From NCBI RefSeq assembly GCF_019219095.1, contig NZ_JAHUWH010000009.1, forward strand, positions 62,001-126,000: a stretch of DNA of 64,000 nt, read 5' to 3'. Both the position numbers and the translations under genes were made by a program. Below the pieces are notes generated by a model, which worked only from the letters and a program-made list of their open reading frames with translations, had not been told where the DNA came from and did no database searches. Origin of the DNA: Acidovorax sp. sic0104 (GTDB lineage Bacteria; Pseudomonadota; Gammaproteobacteria; Burkholderiales; Burkholderiaceae_C). Positions 58,193 through 62,587 of this stretch are shown here, piece by piece. Position 1 is the first letter of the stretch. The number at the start of each line of letters is the position of its first letter.

Positions 58193-58613
58193 GGGACAAC
58201 TCCGGGGCCCCGGCGGGCCCGACAATGACAAATCCGAGGGTGGTGCGGACTGGAAAGACCGGCCTACCGAACCTCGGCCCCGTGTCAGCGGCCCGGGCCC
58301 TGCGGCCCCGGCTTTTGGCGGGTAACCCACGATTTTCCCACTTTGCGCAGGCCGTGTCTGTTTCCACGCCCCTCACCCTGTTTCGGACTCAGTTGCTGGG
58401 CCCGCCACCAGCGCACCCAAGCGCAAGGGTCTTGAGGCCCGCAGGTCTCTTCGTGAGTGACCTCCCTGCCGCGCCTCATCCTCCACACTCCATCGCACCA
58501 CGGATAGCGTTTCACGTGGAACATATCGAACCCGGACCGGTGCGCTCGCGAGCCCGGTCCGCCCGTGTCTTGCAGGATTCCTGTCGCCCGCCTGTGCTCC
58601 AATCGCAGGCACC
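58193..58613. other. 421-bp gap between mnmG and the FMN reductase gene
   Basis: No gene seen. Holds the divergent promoters, a parS-like site at 58508-58523, and an 8-bp-arm hairpin CGGACCGG-N13-CCGGTCCG at 58533-58561 in the leader of the reductase gene. I find no DnaA-box cluster, so this is not obviously the replication origin. Confidence 0.5.
58508..58523. promoter_or_regulatory. parS-like site 4 (intergenic, weaker)
   Basis: CGTTTCACGTGGAACA, two mismatches to the parS consensus. Confidence 0.65.
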
Positions 58614-59222
58614 ATGCCTCCAACCACTCCTTCCCTTCTCGTCTTCGCCGGCAGCACCCGCCAGCAGTCGTTCAACCGCAAGCTGGCCCACGCCACCGCC
58701 GCCATCGCGCGGGACGCCGGAGCCAGCGTCACACTGCTCGAGCTGTCGGACTTCGATATCCCTCTGTACAACGCCGACCTCGAAGCCCAGGGCACACCGG
58801 CCGACGTGATCCGGCTCAAGGAGATCCTGTGGCGGCACCCCGCCTGGGTGATCTGCTCGCCCGAGTACAACGGCAGCTACACCGCCCTGCTCAAGAACAC
58901 CATCGACTGGGCATCCAGCCCCGTCAAGGGCGACCCCGATTGGGAGGACGGCGGCAAGTCCTTCCGCGGCAAGGTAGTGGGCATGCTCAGCGCCTCGCCC
59001 GGCGCCCTGGGCGGCCTGCGCTCGCAAAGCCACCTGGCCCCGCTGCTCATCAACGCCGAATGCTGGCTCGCGCCCAAAGCCTTTGCCCTGGGCTCTGCCG
59101 CAAGCGCGTTCGACGAAGCCGGCGCGCTGGTCCATCCAGCCCACCGCGACCGTGTGCGCGCCGTGGTGGACCAGGTGCTGTGGGCCTCTGCCCGGCTGCA
59201 CCCCGAAAGCGCCGCTGCCTGA
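58614..59222 (+). CDS. NADPH-dependent FMN reductase (ChrR/YieF-like)
   Basis: A 202-residue flavodoxin-fold reductase: [23 protein letters not shown] (FMN phosphate site GSTRxxSxN), [32 protein letters not shown] (family signature) and [19 protein letters not shown]. Members reduce quinones, azo dyes or chromate with NAD(P)H. The start ATG at 58614 follows a short leader with a hairpin. It is divergent from mnmG. Confidence 0.92.
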
Positions 59223-59274
59223 CGCCGCGCCAGGCACAAAATCAGCCCCTGCCGCGCTCTGTACAAACGCCAAC

Positions 59275-59293
59275 AGCTATACAAACCATAGCT
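59275..59293. repeat. Family A repeat, partial copy 7
   Basis: AGCTATACAAACCATAGCT, only the small hairpin half of the element, seven bases before the start of the cysteine-cluster gene. A further fragment (AGCTATCAAATCAGGAGCGC) lies at about 59660-59680. Confidence 0.5.
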
Positions 59294-59299
59294 AATCCT

Positions 59300-59575
59300 A
59301 TGGATTGCCGCCCCGGCTGCGGCGCTTGCTGCACCGCACCTTCCATCAGCTCCGCCATCCCGGGCATGCCGCTGGGCAAGCCCGCCGGAGTGCGGTGCGT
59401 CCAGTTGGGCGCAGACGAGCGCTGCCTCATCTTCGGTCGCCCCGAGCGCCCCGCCGTGTGCGGCGGACTCATGCCGTCCGCAGAGATGTGCGGCACCAGC
59501 ACCACATCGGCCTTCATGTACCTGGAGCGCTTGGAGCGGCTGACCCAGCCACACACGGCTGCGCCCCGGCCCTGA
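59300..59575 (+). CDS. YkgJ family cysteine-cluster protein
   Basis: A 91-residue protein with the zinc/iron-chelating Cys pattern of the YkgJ group: CRPGCGACC at residues 3-11, [22 protein letters not shown] and a late MCGTS. Start at 59300. Such proteins bind Zn or an Fe-S cluster and have no settled role. It stands 77 bp after the FMN reductase with a family A hairpin at its start. Confidence 0.85.
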
Positions 59576-59692
59576 ACCGCCAACGAGCCTCCCGCCGGCA
59601 CCACAGGGCCAAGAATCTGATTCAAAACAGCCTCTCCCGCTTAGCTGGCTTACGTCAGTAGCTATCAAATCAGGAGCGCAAACCATCCCAGC

Positions 59693-59719
59693 TGTCACAC
59701 ACCGGCAGTCTCCCCCGTC
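59693..59719 (+). promoter_or_regulatory. ECF41 promoter before the sigma gene
   Basis: TGTCACA (59693-59699), 16-bp spacer, CGTC (59716-59719). This is the published ECF41 target motif in exact form, 72 bp before the sigma-factor start, and implies autoregulation. Confidence 0.85.
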
Positions 59720-59790
59720 TGGCAGATATGGCCAGACAATGCGCAGCGGCGGTTGATCTGCTTCACCACCCACAGACCAGGCTCCAGCCC

Positions 59791-60699
59791 ATGACCTCCG
59801 AAGCCCCTCCAGCGGCCCCCAGCGCTCGCGTCGCAGACCCCTTCACCACCTTGCGTCCGCGCCTGTTCGGCATCGCCTACCGCATGCTCGGCGTGCGCGC
59901 CGATGCCGAGGATGTGCTGCAGGACGCCTGGCTGCGCTGGAGCCGCACCGACCCGGCCACCCTGCAATCGGCAGAGGCCTGGCTGGTGACGGTGGTCACG
60001 CGCCTGTCCATCGACCGGCTGCGCGCGCTCAAGGCCGAGCGCGAGGCCTATGTGGGCTGGTGGCTGCCCGAGCCGCTGGTGGAGCCGCTTGACGAGCGCA
60101 CGCCCGAATCCGCCGCCGAGCTGGCCGGCGAGCTGTCGGTGGCCTTCCTGTACGTGCTGGAGCGCCTGGGCCCCGAGGAGCGCGCCGCCTTCTTGCTGCG
60201 CCAGGTGTTCGACTACGACTATCCCGACATCGCCGCCCAACTGGGCAAGAGCGAGGCAGCCTGCCGCCAGATGGTGCACCGCGCGAGCGACCGCGTGCAG
60301 CAGGCACGCACCCGCTTCGAAGTGCCCCAGGGCGTGCACCACCAGCTGCTCACGCGCTTCATCGCCGCAGCCCACAGCGGCGAGCGCAAGGCCATCGAAG
60401 CCCTGCTGTCGCAGGACGCCATGCTCATCGGCGACGGCGGCGGCAAGGTGCAGTCGTTCCCGCACCCGCTGGTGGGCGCCTTCCGCATCGCCAACCTGTA
60501 CTGGGCGCAGTGGCGGCGCATGGCAGACCAGGTGGTCTACCGCCCGGTGCTGCTCAATGGCGAGCCTGGCCTGCTGCGCTACCTGCACGGCCGGCTCGAG
60601 TCGGCCCAGGCCATCGTGACCGACGGCGAGCGCATCGTCGCCATCTACGCCATTCGCAACCCCGACAAACTGACGGGCATCCCGCTCACGCTGGACTGA
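59791..60699 (+). CDS. ECF41-type sigma factor with SnoaL-like C-terminus
   Basis: A 302-residue extracytoplasmic-function sigma factor. Sigma2 (FGIAYRMLGVRADAEDVLQDAWLRW) and sigma4 (LLRQVFDYDYPDIAAQLGKSEAACRQMVHRASDRVQ) are followed by a SnoaL/NTF2-like domain of about 120 residues. The three ECF41 marks are present: WLPEP near residue 91, DGGGK near 216 and NPDKL near 290. In this group the C-terminal domain controls sigma activity in place of an anti-sigma factor. It has an ECF41-type promoter itself and one before the next gene. Start at 59791. Confidence 0.95.
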   Translation: MTSEAPPAAPSARVADPFTTLRPRLFGIAYRMLGVRADAEDVLQDAWLRWSRTDPATLQSAEAWLVTVVTRLSIDRLRALKAEREAYVGWWLPEPLVEPLDERTPESAAELAGELSVAFLYVLERLGPEERAAFLLRQVFDYDYPDIAAQLGKSEAACRQMVHRASDRVQQARTRFEVPQGVHHQLLTRFIAAAHSGERKAIEALLSQDAMLIGDGGGKVQSFPHPLVGAFRIANLYWAQWRRMADQVVYRPVLLNGEPGLLRYLHGRLESAQAIVTDGERIVAIYAIRNPDKLTGIPLTLD

Positions 60700-60743
60700 G
60701 ATCGTGTCCACGCTCCGACTGCGCAGAAAAATGCAGGCGGGGC

Positions 60744-60770
60744 TGTCACAACGCGGTGGCGCGCCGCGTC
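60744..60770 (+). promoter_or_regulatory. ECF41 promoter before the AhpD-like gene
   Basis: TGTCACA (60744-60750), 16-bp spacer, CGTC (60767-60770), 85 bp before the start of the carboxymuconolactone-decarboxylase-family gene. Same elements and spacing as the site before the sigma gene. Confidence 0.88.
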
Positions 60771-60854
60771 TTGAAGGGTATGGAAGGCGACGCAGGTGCC
60801 GAGCCTTCCAGACACGCATTGCCCACCAACCCTTCATCGCTCCAGGAGCTCTCC

Positions 60855-61319
60855 ATGTCCCAGCACACCGCCCGCCTGCCCTACCACCAGCTTTCGTCCA
60901 AGGCCTTCATGGGCCTGGTCAACGTGTCCGAAACCATCAAGAAGGGCGCCCTGGGCGCGCGCCTGGCAGAGCTCGTGTTCCTGCGCGTCTCGCAGATCAA
61001 CGGCTGCGCCTACTGCATGGACATGCACTGGAACTACCTTGTCAAGGACGGCATGGAGCCGCGCCATCTCAACGCCGTGGCCGGCTGGCGCGAAGCGCCT
61101 TTCTTCAGCGACCGCGAGCGCGCCGCCTTCCGCTGGGCCGAGATCATCACCGCCACGCCCCACAGCGACGCCAGCGATGAAGAATTCGCCAGACTCAAAA
61201 CCTTGTTCAACGACGCCGAGATCGCGGACCTGGGTTTTGCGATTGCCATCATCAATGCGTGGAACCTGCTCAATGCAGGCATGCGCAGCCCCATTCCGGC
61301 ACAAGCTGTGGGAGCCTGA
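60855..61319 (+). CDS. Carboxymuconolactone decarboxylase/AhpD family protein (ECF41 target)
   Basis: A 154-residue AhpD-fold protein with the redox motif CAYCMDMH near residue 50 and the family text LVNVSETIKKGALGARLAELVFLRVSQINGC and ERAAFRWAEIITATP. CAGGAG precedes the start at 60855. Carboxymuconolactone-decarboxylase, oxidoreductase or epimerase genes are the standard neighbours and direct targets of ECF41 sigma factors, and the ECF41-type promoter here supports this. It likely acts in alkylhydroperoxide or thiol chemistry; the signal is unknown. Confidence 0.93.
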   Translation: MSQHTARLPYHQLSSKAFMGLVNVSETIKKGALGARLAELVFLRVSQINGCAYCMDMHWNYLVKDGMEPRHLNAVAGWREAPFFSDRERAAFRWAEIITATPHSDASDEEFARLKTLFNDAEIADLGFAIAIINAWNLLNAGMRSPIPAQAVGA

Positions 61320-61372
61320 GGCAGGCCTTTCGACAGGCACGGCACGCACGATATGCGGCGGTCCTGTGCCAT

Positions 61373-62587
61373 TCACGCAGCGCGCTGCATCTGCTCCGAC
61401 AAGGCCACCGCACTGCCCGCCGCGAGCGTCAGCCCCAGCGCCCCGTGCCCCACGTTGAGGTACACGTTGCTGGCGCGCCAGCGGCCCACGATGGGCACCG
61501 ACGTGGGCGTGGCGGGCCGCAGCCCCGCCCAGGTGGCGGGCGCATTCAGATCGCACAGGCCCGGGTAGGTCTGCGCCACCGCATCCACCATGGTCTGCAC
61601 GCGGTCCGCAGGCACATCGAGGCCAGTGGCGCCCACCTCGGCCATGGCCGCCACGCGCAGGCACGCGCCCAGCGGCGCGAACACGGCCTTGCGGCCCAAG
61701 TCGGTCACGCTCGCGCGGGGGCGCTGCACGCCATCGCGAAACGGCACGGTAATGCTGTAGCCCTTGATGGGGTAGATGGGCAGGTAGATGCCCAACTGCG
61801 CGGCCAGCGGCACCACGCGCGGGCCGGCGGCCAGCACGAAGGCATCGGCAGCGATGTCGCCCTGGTCGGTGACCACAGCGCTCACCCGGCCCGCCCGTCG
61901 CGCGAACGCCCGCGCCAACACACCGAACGACACCGTGCCGCCGCGCTGGCGCAGGCTGGCCACCAGGTCCAGGCACAGGCGGTGCGGGTCGCCGATGCAC
62001 TCGTCGCGGGTCCACACGCCGCCCGCCCAGGGCCGCCCGGGCGCGGCCTGCAGCGCGGGTTCCTTCTCCAGGCATTCACGCACGCTCAGCACCTCCTGCC
62101 GGCAGCCCAGCGCGGCCTGCAGCGCCACCTGGCGCTGCTGCTGGCGCAGCGAATCCGGCGTGGGGCACAGCACCAGCTTGCCGTTCACTTCAAAGCCGAA
62201 GGACCAGGCCTCTTGAGCCATCCACCGCGCCAGCGCGTCTCGGCTGGCCCGCGCCATTTGCAGCAGCTGCGCCGTGCCCTGCAGCGACTGGCGGGCCGAA
62301 CACGCGCGCAGGAACTGCAGGCCCCAGGCCCATTGCCGCCAGTCCCAGCGCGGGTGAAACCGCACCGCCGAACCGCGCGACAGCAGCATCTTGGGCAGGC
62401 CGCGCAGCGTGGCGGGCGACGCGAACGGCTCCACATAGCTGTAGCTCAGCTGCGCCCCGTTGGCGTAGCTGGTGACCAGGCCCGGTGCCTGTGCCGCGTC
62501 CAGCAGATGCACGTCGTGGCCCTGGCGCGCCAGTTCGTAGGCGGTGGCGCAGCCGATCACACCCGCGCCGATCACGCAGACCTTCAT
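61373..62587 (-). CDS. FAD-dependent D-amino-acid dehydrogenase (DadA-like)
   Basis: A 404-residue flavoprotein. Rossmann start MKVCVIGAGVIGCATAYELARQGHDVHLLDA (GxGxxG) and DadA-family text SYANGAQLSYSYVEPFASP, GYSITVPFRDG, GLRPATPTSVPIVGR and NVYLNVGHGALGLTLAAGSA. It oxidises D-amino or imino acids to keto or imino acids, passing electrons to the membrane. Start at 62587 overlaps the upstream gene's stop by 4 bp, so it is coupled to the ornithine-cyclodeaminase-family gene. It may be a D-hydroxyproline or similar dehydrogenase. Confidence 0.92.
   Translation of the reverse strand: MKVCVIGAGVIGCATAYELARQGHDVHLLDAAQAPGLVTSYANGAQLSYSYVEPFASPATLRGLPKMLLSRGSAVRFHPRWDWRQWAWGLQFLRACSARQSLQGTAQLLQMARASRDALARWMAQEAWSFGFEVNGKLVLCPTPDSLRQQQRQVALQAALGCRQEVLSVRECLEKEPALQAAPGRPWAGGVWTRDECIGDPHRLCLDLVASLRQRGGTVSFGVLARAFARRAGRVSAVVTDQGDIAADAFVLAAGPRVVPLAAQLGIYLPIYPIKGYSITVPFRDGVQRPRASVTDLGRKAVFAPLGACLRVAAMAEVGATGLDVPADRVQTMVDAVAQTYPGLCDLNAPATWAGLRPATPTSVPIVGRWRASNVYLNVGHGALGLTLAAGSAVALSEQMQRAA

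Follow-up and report, generated by a model that had tools for sequence, protein, structure and literature searches.

The window analysed here is a 64,000-nt stretch of DNA from Acidovorax sp. sic0104, and it carries a gene for an ECF41-type sigma factor followed on the same strand by a gene for an AhpD-like protein. The features needed for the argument are listed below, with positions counted from the first base of the window.

59693-59719, + strand: predicted ECF41-type promoter of the sigma gene, an exact match (-35 element TGTCACA at 59693-59699, N16 spacer, -10 element CGTC at 59716-59719)
59728-59790, + strand: predicted 5′ leader of the sigma message, from a predicted start point at CGTC+9 (59728), the distance seen in S. 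meliloti
59791-60699, + strand: ECF41/SigJ-like sigma factor of 302 aa, with sigma-2, sigma-4 and a fused C-terminal extension
60744-60770, + strand: predicted ECF41-type promoter of the AhpD-like gene, an exact match (-35 element at 60744-60750, N16 spacer, -10 element at 60767-60770)
60779-60782, + strand: predicted start point of the AhpD message (CGTC+9, 60779) with an AUG at the predicted 5′ end (60780-60782)
60781-60810, + strand: predicted 5′-terminal stem-loop of the AhpD mRNA, with arms at 60781-60788 (TGGAAGGC) and 60803-60810 (GCCTTCCA)
60844-60848, + strand: Shine-Dalgarno sequence AGGAG of the AhpD-like gene
60855-61319, + strand: AhpD-like protein of the carboxymuconolactone-decarboxylase (CMD) family, 154 aa (PF02627), with a CxxC motif (CAYC) at residues 51-54

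By the features checked, the product of the first gene is an ECF41 sigma factor, as the initial annotation had proposed. The protein passes the NCBIfam cut-offs of SigX4 (335.8 bits, cut-off 323.25) and of the SigJ subfamily (305.3, cut-off 271), PF04542, PF08281 and TIGR02957 are all above cut-off, and the PDB SigJ chain 5xe7 matches residues 16-299 of 302. No SnoaL match was reported by Pfam in this protein, and the C-terminal extension is known by its sequence match to 5xe7. WLPEP, DGGGK and NPDKL are conserved motifs of ECF41 factors, and the annotation was right that all three are in the protein (residues 91-95, 215-219 and 290-294, respectively); among 25 aligned relatives the W, E and P of the first, the DGGG of the second and the N, P, K and L of the third are invariant, while the remaining letters vary. 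The genome holds no second close relative of this factor, the next match (E 8.5e-19) being confined to the sigma domains. The call of an AhpD-like neighbour was likewise upheld by the match to PF02627. No anti-sigma gene was found among the adjacent genes, which encode an FMN reductase-like protein, a CxxCxxCC-domain frame, the CMD protein and a DAO-type oxidoreductase.

The CxxCxxCC frame (59300-59575, + strand, 91 aa) matches a putative zinc- or iron-chelating domain above cut-off (PF03692), and is flanked by the FMN reductase-like gene and the sigma promoter. The flanks of the locus (58291-62196, L004) are mosaic, since the part 5′ of the sigma gene, including the promoter spacer, resembles G020/G019 and the part 3′ of the AhpD-like gene resembles G040, which suggests recombination at the ECF41 locus.

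Both matches to TGTCACA-N16-CGTC lie on the + strand with the same spacer length, and the distances of 72 and 85 given for them agree with our count: counted from the end of the first CGTC, base 72 is the A of the sigma start codon (59791), and base 85 beyond the second CGTC is the A of the AhpD-like start codon (60855). The range originally assigned to the module, 59693-60770, encloses the two sites and leaves the AhpD-like gene outside. When spacers of 14-18 were allowed, these two remained the sole matches in the window, and in 100 shuffles of the window the mean was 0.10 matches, with two or more in one shuffle. The genome-wide search for the pattern suggested in the initial annotation was run and returned three exact sites, against one for a reversed control pattern. 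A crude scan of 59200-61500 found no sigma-70-like promoter, and no terminator-like site was found on the + strand between the sigma and AhpD-like genes.

To judge how widely the pair is kept, 47 Acidovorax genomes were searched, and the sigma gene was found in 33 of them at E 1e-40; in 33/33 it is followed, on its own strand, by the AhpD-like gene. Among the 31 loci with at least 250 nt read upstream, both sites are exact in 29, the sigma site in 30 and the target site in 30; L027 is without the target site and L037 without the sigma site. Over all same-genus loci the target site is exact in 32/33. The spacers vary between species, whereas the -35 and -10 elements are unchanged; thus, both sites appear to matter. 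On the antisense strand, used as a control, one exact site was found in 365,732 bases (96 loci). Moreover, exact sites track the presence of the sigma gene across the genus: the 33 ECF41-positive genomes hold 107 exact sites against 29 reversed-control sites, and the 14 ECF41-negative genomes, several of them incomplete assemblies, hold 2 against 7. In the single genus locus of the 33 that is missing the target site (L027, genome G023), the gap between the sigma gene and the AhpD-like gene is about 800 nt long.

In the wider family, 63 of 68 matches were read with a slightly looser site pattern, and a CMD gene lies downstream in 45 of the 63. Of these 45 loci, 27 have both sites (24 with both exact), 11 the sigma site only, four the target site only and three neither. 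The initial annotation had treated a site before the sigma gene itself as a departure from the known cases, and this implied novelty did not hold, because the layout is already tabulated in Wecke 2012 (PMC3426412): in the part of that study concerned, the motif precedes the ECF gene in 14 of 53 ECF>COE loci and the COE gene in 24, and both genes in 20% of these loci. What is additional to the published layout is the fixation of the site before the sigma gene in a genus and its frequency in the family.

The position of the start codon gives separate information on the sigma site. In S. meliloti, transcription starts 9 nt downstream of the ECF41 motif (PMC3616915), and the 5′ RACE of Wecke 2012 is compatible with that distance (PMC3426412). 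In the family outside the genus, 46 loci have a sigma site; an in-frame sigma ATG stands at CGTC+9 or +10 in 35 of them, with one more locus at +8 and two at +12. Of the 35, one (L094) also carries an earlier ATG. In 33 of these 38 loci there is no later start codon before the conserved region, and in 18 of the 38 there is no in-frame stop in the preceding 90 nt, where a start farther upstream is possible. The arrangement predicts a leaderless sigma mRNA in most family loci outside the genus. An ATG at the mapped start distance would be unexpected otherwise, and thus argues that the sigma site is a promoter.

The same arrangement extends outside the family, where 23 of 41 sigma-site loci have an ATG at +8 to +12 and 18 do not, in a set from which own-family loci were removed by hand and in which some metagenome bins of unsure family remain. 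The genera with an ATG at this distance include Stenotrophomonas, Luteimonas, Lysobacter, Massilia, Duganella and Paraburkholderia. Another 76 loci outside the family lack a sigma site, and 38 of them carry the motif farther upstream on the same strand, as COE>ECF operons would be expected to do. When the leaderless label was mapped on a tree of 76 sigma proteins, 4 changes sufficed, compared with 25.5 in shuffles; the genus rows (30, labelled leadered by rule) form one supported group. Two leaderless rows (L044 and L048) stand beside the genus group and forks of the tree are weak, so that more than one replacement is possible. Our literature search found no leaderless ECF41 message, and the passage on S. 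meliloti RpoE9 in PMC3616915 does not speak of leaderless messages.

In the genus, the likely sigma start lies instead at CGTC+35 to +72. The window has an ATG nine bases past the first CGTC (59728), which is in frame with the sigma gene, would add 21 residues and is absent from the initial annotation. We considered it as the start of a leaderless N-terminal extension. It is common to L018, but in L019 the ATG has become ACG and the frame is lost, the leader being one base shorter. Hence, 59791 is the better sigma start, and the frame from 59728 is probably not used. A Shine-Dalgarno core is absent before 59791, and across the genus it was found in 3/30 sigma leaders as against 32/32 AhpD leaders; outside the genus, 22/30 AhpD leaders have one. 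In most loci read, then, the sigma message is predicted to be leaderless or lacks a Shine-Dalgarno core, and the target is usually led by one.

These data bear on an alternative, in which the unit would be target-only: the AhpD-like site would be the working promoter, the sigma site a weak one or a vestige, and constitutive expression of the sigma gene would come from a different promoter. The COE gene was the sole target detectable in published ECF41 work, as far as the sections of PMC3426412 concerned go, and the four family loci with the target site alone, together with L037, indicate that the sigma site is dispensable. However, a vestigial site would have to be reconciled with its exact form in 30/31 genus loci and with the in-frame ATG at 9 or 10 bases from it in 35/46 other family loci, and the crude scan offered no sigma-70-like site from which constitutive expression could start. 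We regard this alternative as quite improbable. It is instead very likely that the locus is an autoregulated ECF41 module in which the sigma factor would drive both its own promoter and that of the AhpD-like gene. Positive feedback, put forward in the initial annotation as a consequence of the sigma site, agrees with the retention of that site in 30/31 genus loci and would be expected from it.

The leader of the AhpD message differs from that of the sigma message in further features. An ATG stands at CGTC+9 or +10 in 30/32 genus AhpD leaders, that is, at or next to the predicted 5′ end. A conserved leader peptide read from this AUG was rejected as an explanation, since frame and peptide vary and the AUG is in frame with the gene in 5/30. 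The first 45 nt fold with z below -1.5 in 22/32 genus leaders as against 0/32 control stretches, and in 4/7 nearer relatives (controls of genus and nearer relatives together, 0/39); in more distant family loci the figures are 2/24 and, for the control, 1/24. In the window, the first 45 nt reach z -2.25, and the whole 79-nt leader (z -0.38) folds no better than its shuffles. When the search for an unbroken helix was limited to arms starting at CGTC+9 to +14, the helix beat the shuffles at p 0.05 in 14/32 genus loci, 4/6 near relatives and 3/25 others. No Rfam family matched at its gathering score in L316, L004 or L308.

Due to the fact that the MAFFT alignment of AhpD leaders misplaces 3′ arms with long loops, pairing was assessed by swapping arms between loci instead of by a column-wise pair count. 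The mean pairing of the 5′ arms with their own downstream sequence was reached by 0/5000 swaps in the genus, in the genus plus near relatives and when one locus was kept per distinct 5′ arm, a result which relatedness of the loci can inflate. For distant loci it was reached by 1571/5000 swaps. Locus by locus, own pairing exceeds the swapped mean in 21/31 genus loci and is best or tied in 7/31.

A repeat that begins at the predicted +1, which is a usual operator position, might also be read by a repressor on the DNA and not be an RNA structure at all. One repressor would be expected to keep one sequence, but both the sequence of the arms and the length of the loop vary among loci while complementarity is kept. 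Covarying arms of differing sequence thus favour an RNA stem-loop over a fixed operator, and we hold the operator to be unlikely. Stems at the 5′ end can stabilise mRNA, and the predicted stem-loop would probably act on the AhpD message in this way.

The module had been described as self-contained, and here the genome-wide search does not support the initial annotation. The third exact site (G000:C5:38016-38042; L316, minus strand; L001) is followed at a distance of 189 nt by an RND adaptor gene. It falls at the end of a short frame of 26 codons, led by a Shine-Dalgarno sequence, which has a hydrolase gene on one side and an RND efflux operon on the other; the order in the operon is adaptor, AcrB-family pump and outer-membrane efflux gene. 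The closest NCBIfam models of the adaptor, MexE and OqxA, are below cut-off, and the RND adaptor subfamily is above it. In addition, some relatives carry a second AhpD-like gene preceded by a site. Hence a wider regulon must be considered, in which the same sigma factor would also drive the RND operon and, in some species, the second AhpD-like gene.

The second AhpD-like gene is the stronger case of the two. It occurs in 8/47 genus genomes, all of them ECF41-positive, and has a site in 8/8, with an N16 spacer in seven and N15 in the eighth; identity among these genes is 93-100%, which makes them close relatives. No second gene of that kind is present in the window's genome, which counts against this part of the wider regulon there. 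In the leader of the second gene (L308-L315), a GGAGG/CCTCC repeat from about CGTC+10 was seen by eye in 6/8.

The RND operon is a candidate target. In the genus, the site is exact in 19/33 loci and a further three have one mismatch; its distance to the adaptor start is 189-204 nt, or 471 nt in G009. In 23/23 site-bearing loci it overlaps the end of a Shine-Dalgarno-led frame of 22-26 codons, with a Cys-His pair in 20/23, and its CGTC is often followed by GACG, and coding or RNA constraint could therefore contribute to its conservation. The conservation of the motif columns (0.97-0.99, against 0.64 in the spacer) is partly circular, since the site itself was the basis on which the 22 loci were selected. 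Likewise, a bias to TGT in site-bearing loci is not independent, the loci having been chosen by pattern, and the point rests on mismatch-tolerant scoring of all 33 loci and on the ten siteless loci. In the former, no locus has TGC at the motif Cys codon with CGTC kept, whereas the other Cys codons of the overlapping frame are TGC in 27 cases and TGT in six. In the latter, five or six (G012, G021, G044, G017, G014 and perhaps G039) keep a Shine-Dalgarno-led short frame in a similar place. Since such frames are retained in about half of the siteless loci, including that of the ECF41-negative G012, the frame can exist without the motif, and the short frame alone does not explain the motif.

Three ECF41-negative genomes carry the RND gene: G012 and G046 are siteless, but G043 (89% complete) has the site; conversely, 8/30 ECF41-positive genomes have none even at two mismatches. 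In other genera, the RND site is absent at one mismatch in 26/27 loci read. The literature search for a link between ECF41 and efflux returned work on ECF56 only, within the parts of the literature it covered. No further recurring target appeared in the genus: manual removal of the sigma, AhpD, RND and second-AhpD sites from the 107 exact ones left about 20, which is no more than the 29 control sites. On balance, we place the wider regulon with both additions slightly short of an even chance, and the ECF41 regulon is probably not self-contained.

For the autoregulated module, we propose the following sequence of events, in which promoter activity, sigma dependence, the signal and the effects on translation and stability are inferred. 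A signal would relieve the fused C-terminal regulatory domain of the sigma factor, which would then guide RNA polymerase to both promoters, whose elements are identical. Action at its own promoter would give positive feedback, and transcription of the sigma gene may continue through the AhpD-like gene, because no terminator-like site was found between the two. The sigma message would be translated weakly or by a non-canonical route, having no Shine-Dalgarno core here and being predicted leaderless in most family loci, while the AhpD message would have both a Shine-Dalgarno sequence and a 5′-terminal stem-loop. Weak translation of the sigma factor and strong translation of the target would combine a low feedback gain with a high effector output.

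Known systems share parts of this arrangement. The ECF41 factors of B. licheniformis and R. sphaeroides, as described in the sections of Wecke 2012 that treat them (PMC3426412), likewise have a fused C-terminal domain, an AhpD-like CxxC neighbour, the TGTCACA-N16-CGTC motif and no adjacent anti-sigma gene. There, the COE promoter alone was mapped and active and the COE transcript was the sole target found, in a setting where native and ectopic sigma mRNA were inseparable. In Acidovorax, which is known from sequence, the sigma gene comes first, its own site is kept genus-wide and the two messages differ in their features. RpoE9 of S. meliloti is also an ECF41 factor with the same motif and a start 9 nt after it, but there the COE gene comes first and probably shares one transcript with the sigma gene, from a single mapped start (PMC3616915, PMC6180224, in the parts that concern RpoE9), so any autoregulation of RpoE9 would act through the operon. 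M. tuberculosis SigJ (5xe7) is the best solved sequence relative and shares sigma-2, sigma-4 and the fused C-terminal domain, a likeness by sequence match only.

Two comparisons concern the messages. Among the E. coli mRNAs with a 5′-terminal AUG and a downstream Shine-Dalgarno sequence treated in Beck et al. 2016 (PMC4965119), the architecture is like that of the genus AhpD leaders; unlike in these E. coli mRNAs, the AUG in Acidovorax lies next to a conserved stem and is not kept in one frame. A leaderless mRNA of an ECF sigma gene is documented for sigJ of Streptomyces coelicolor, which the relevant passage of PMC3160421 places under another sigma factor; it is compared here as an ECF sigma gene.

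The observations can be joined in one history, which we offer tentatively and would sooner doubt than defend. In Comamonadaceae, other Burkholderiales and Xanthomonadales, the auto-promoter would be fused to the sigma start codon, so that feedback is leaderless, its gain set by the ribosome starting on the 5′-terminal AUG, and the target led by a Shine-Dalgarno sequence. The Acidovorax lineage would have replaced this with a leader lacking a Shine-Dalgarno core, its target mRNA would have gained the 5′-terminal AUG and the covarying stem-loop, and the regulon would have been extended to the second AhpD-like gene and the RND operon.

The module itself is of a known kind and very probably autoregulated, and what is new is the architecture of its messages and its likely extra targets, as read from sequence. 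ECF41 sigma factors are widespread, and little is known of their signal and of the role of feedback. A genus-wide layout with opposite translation signals on sigma factor and target would provide a clean system for measuring feedback gain, and the predicted AUG-start sigma mRNAs in a proteobacterial group can be checked directly in existing 5′-end data sets. If the extra targets are true, the view, published in the part of PMC3426412 concerned, that one gene or one operon is generally all that an ECF41 factor controls would need revision.
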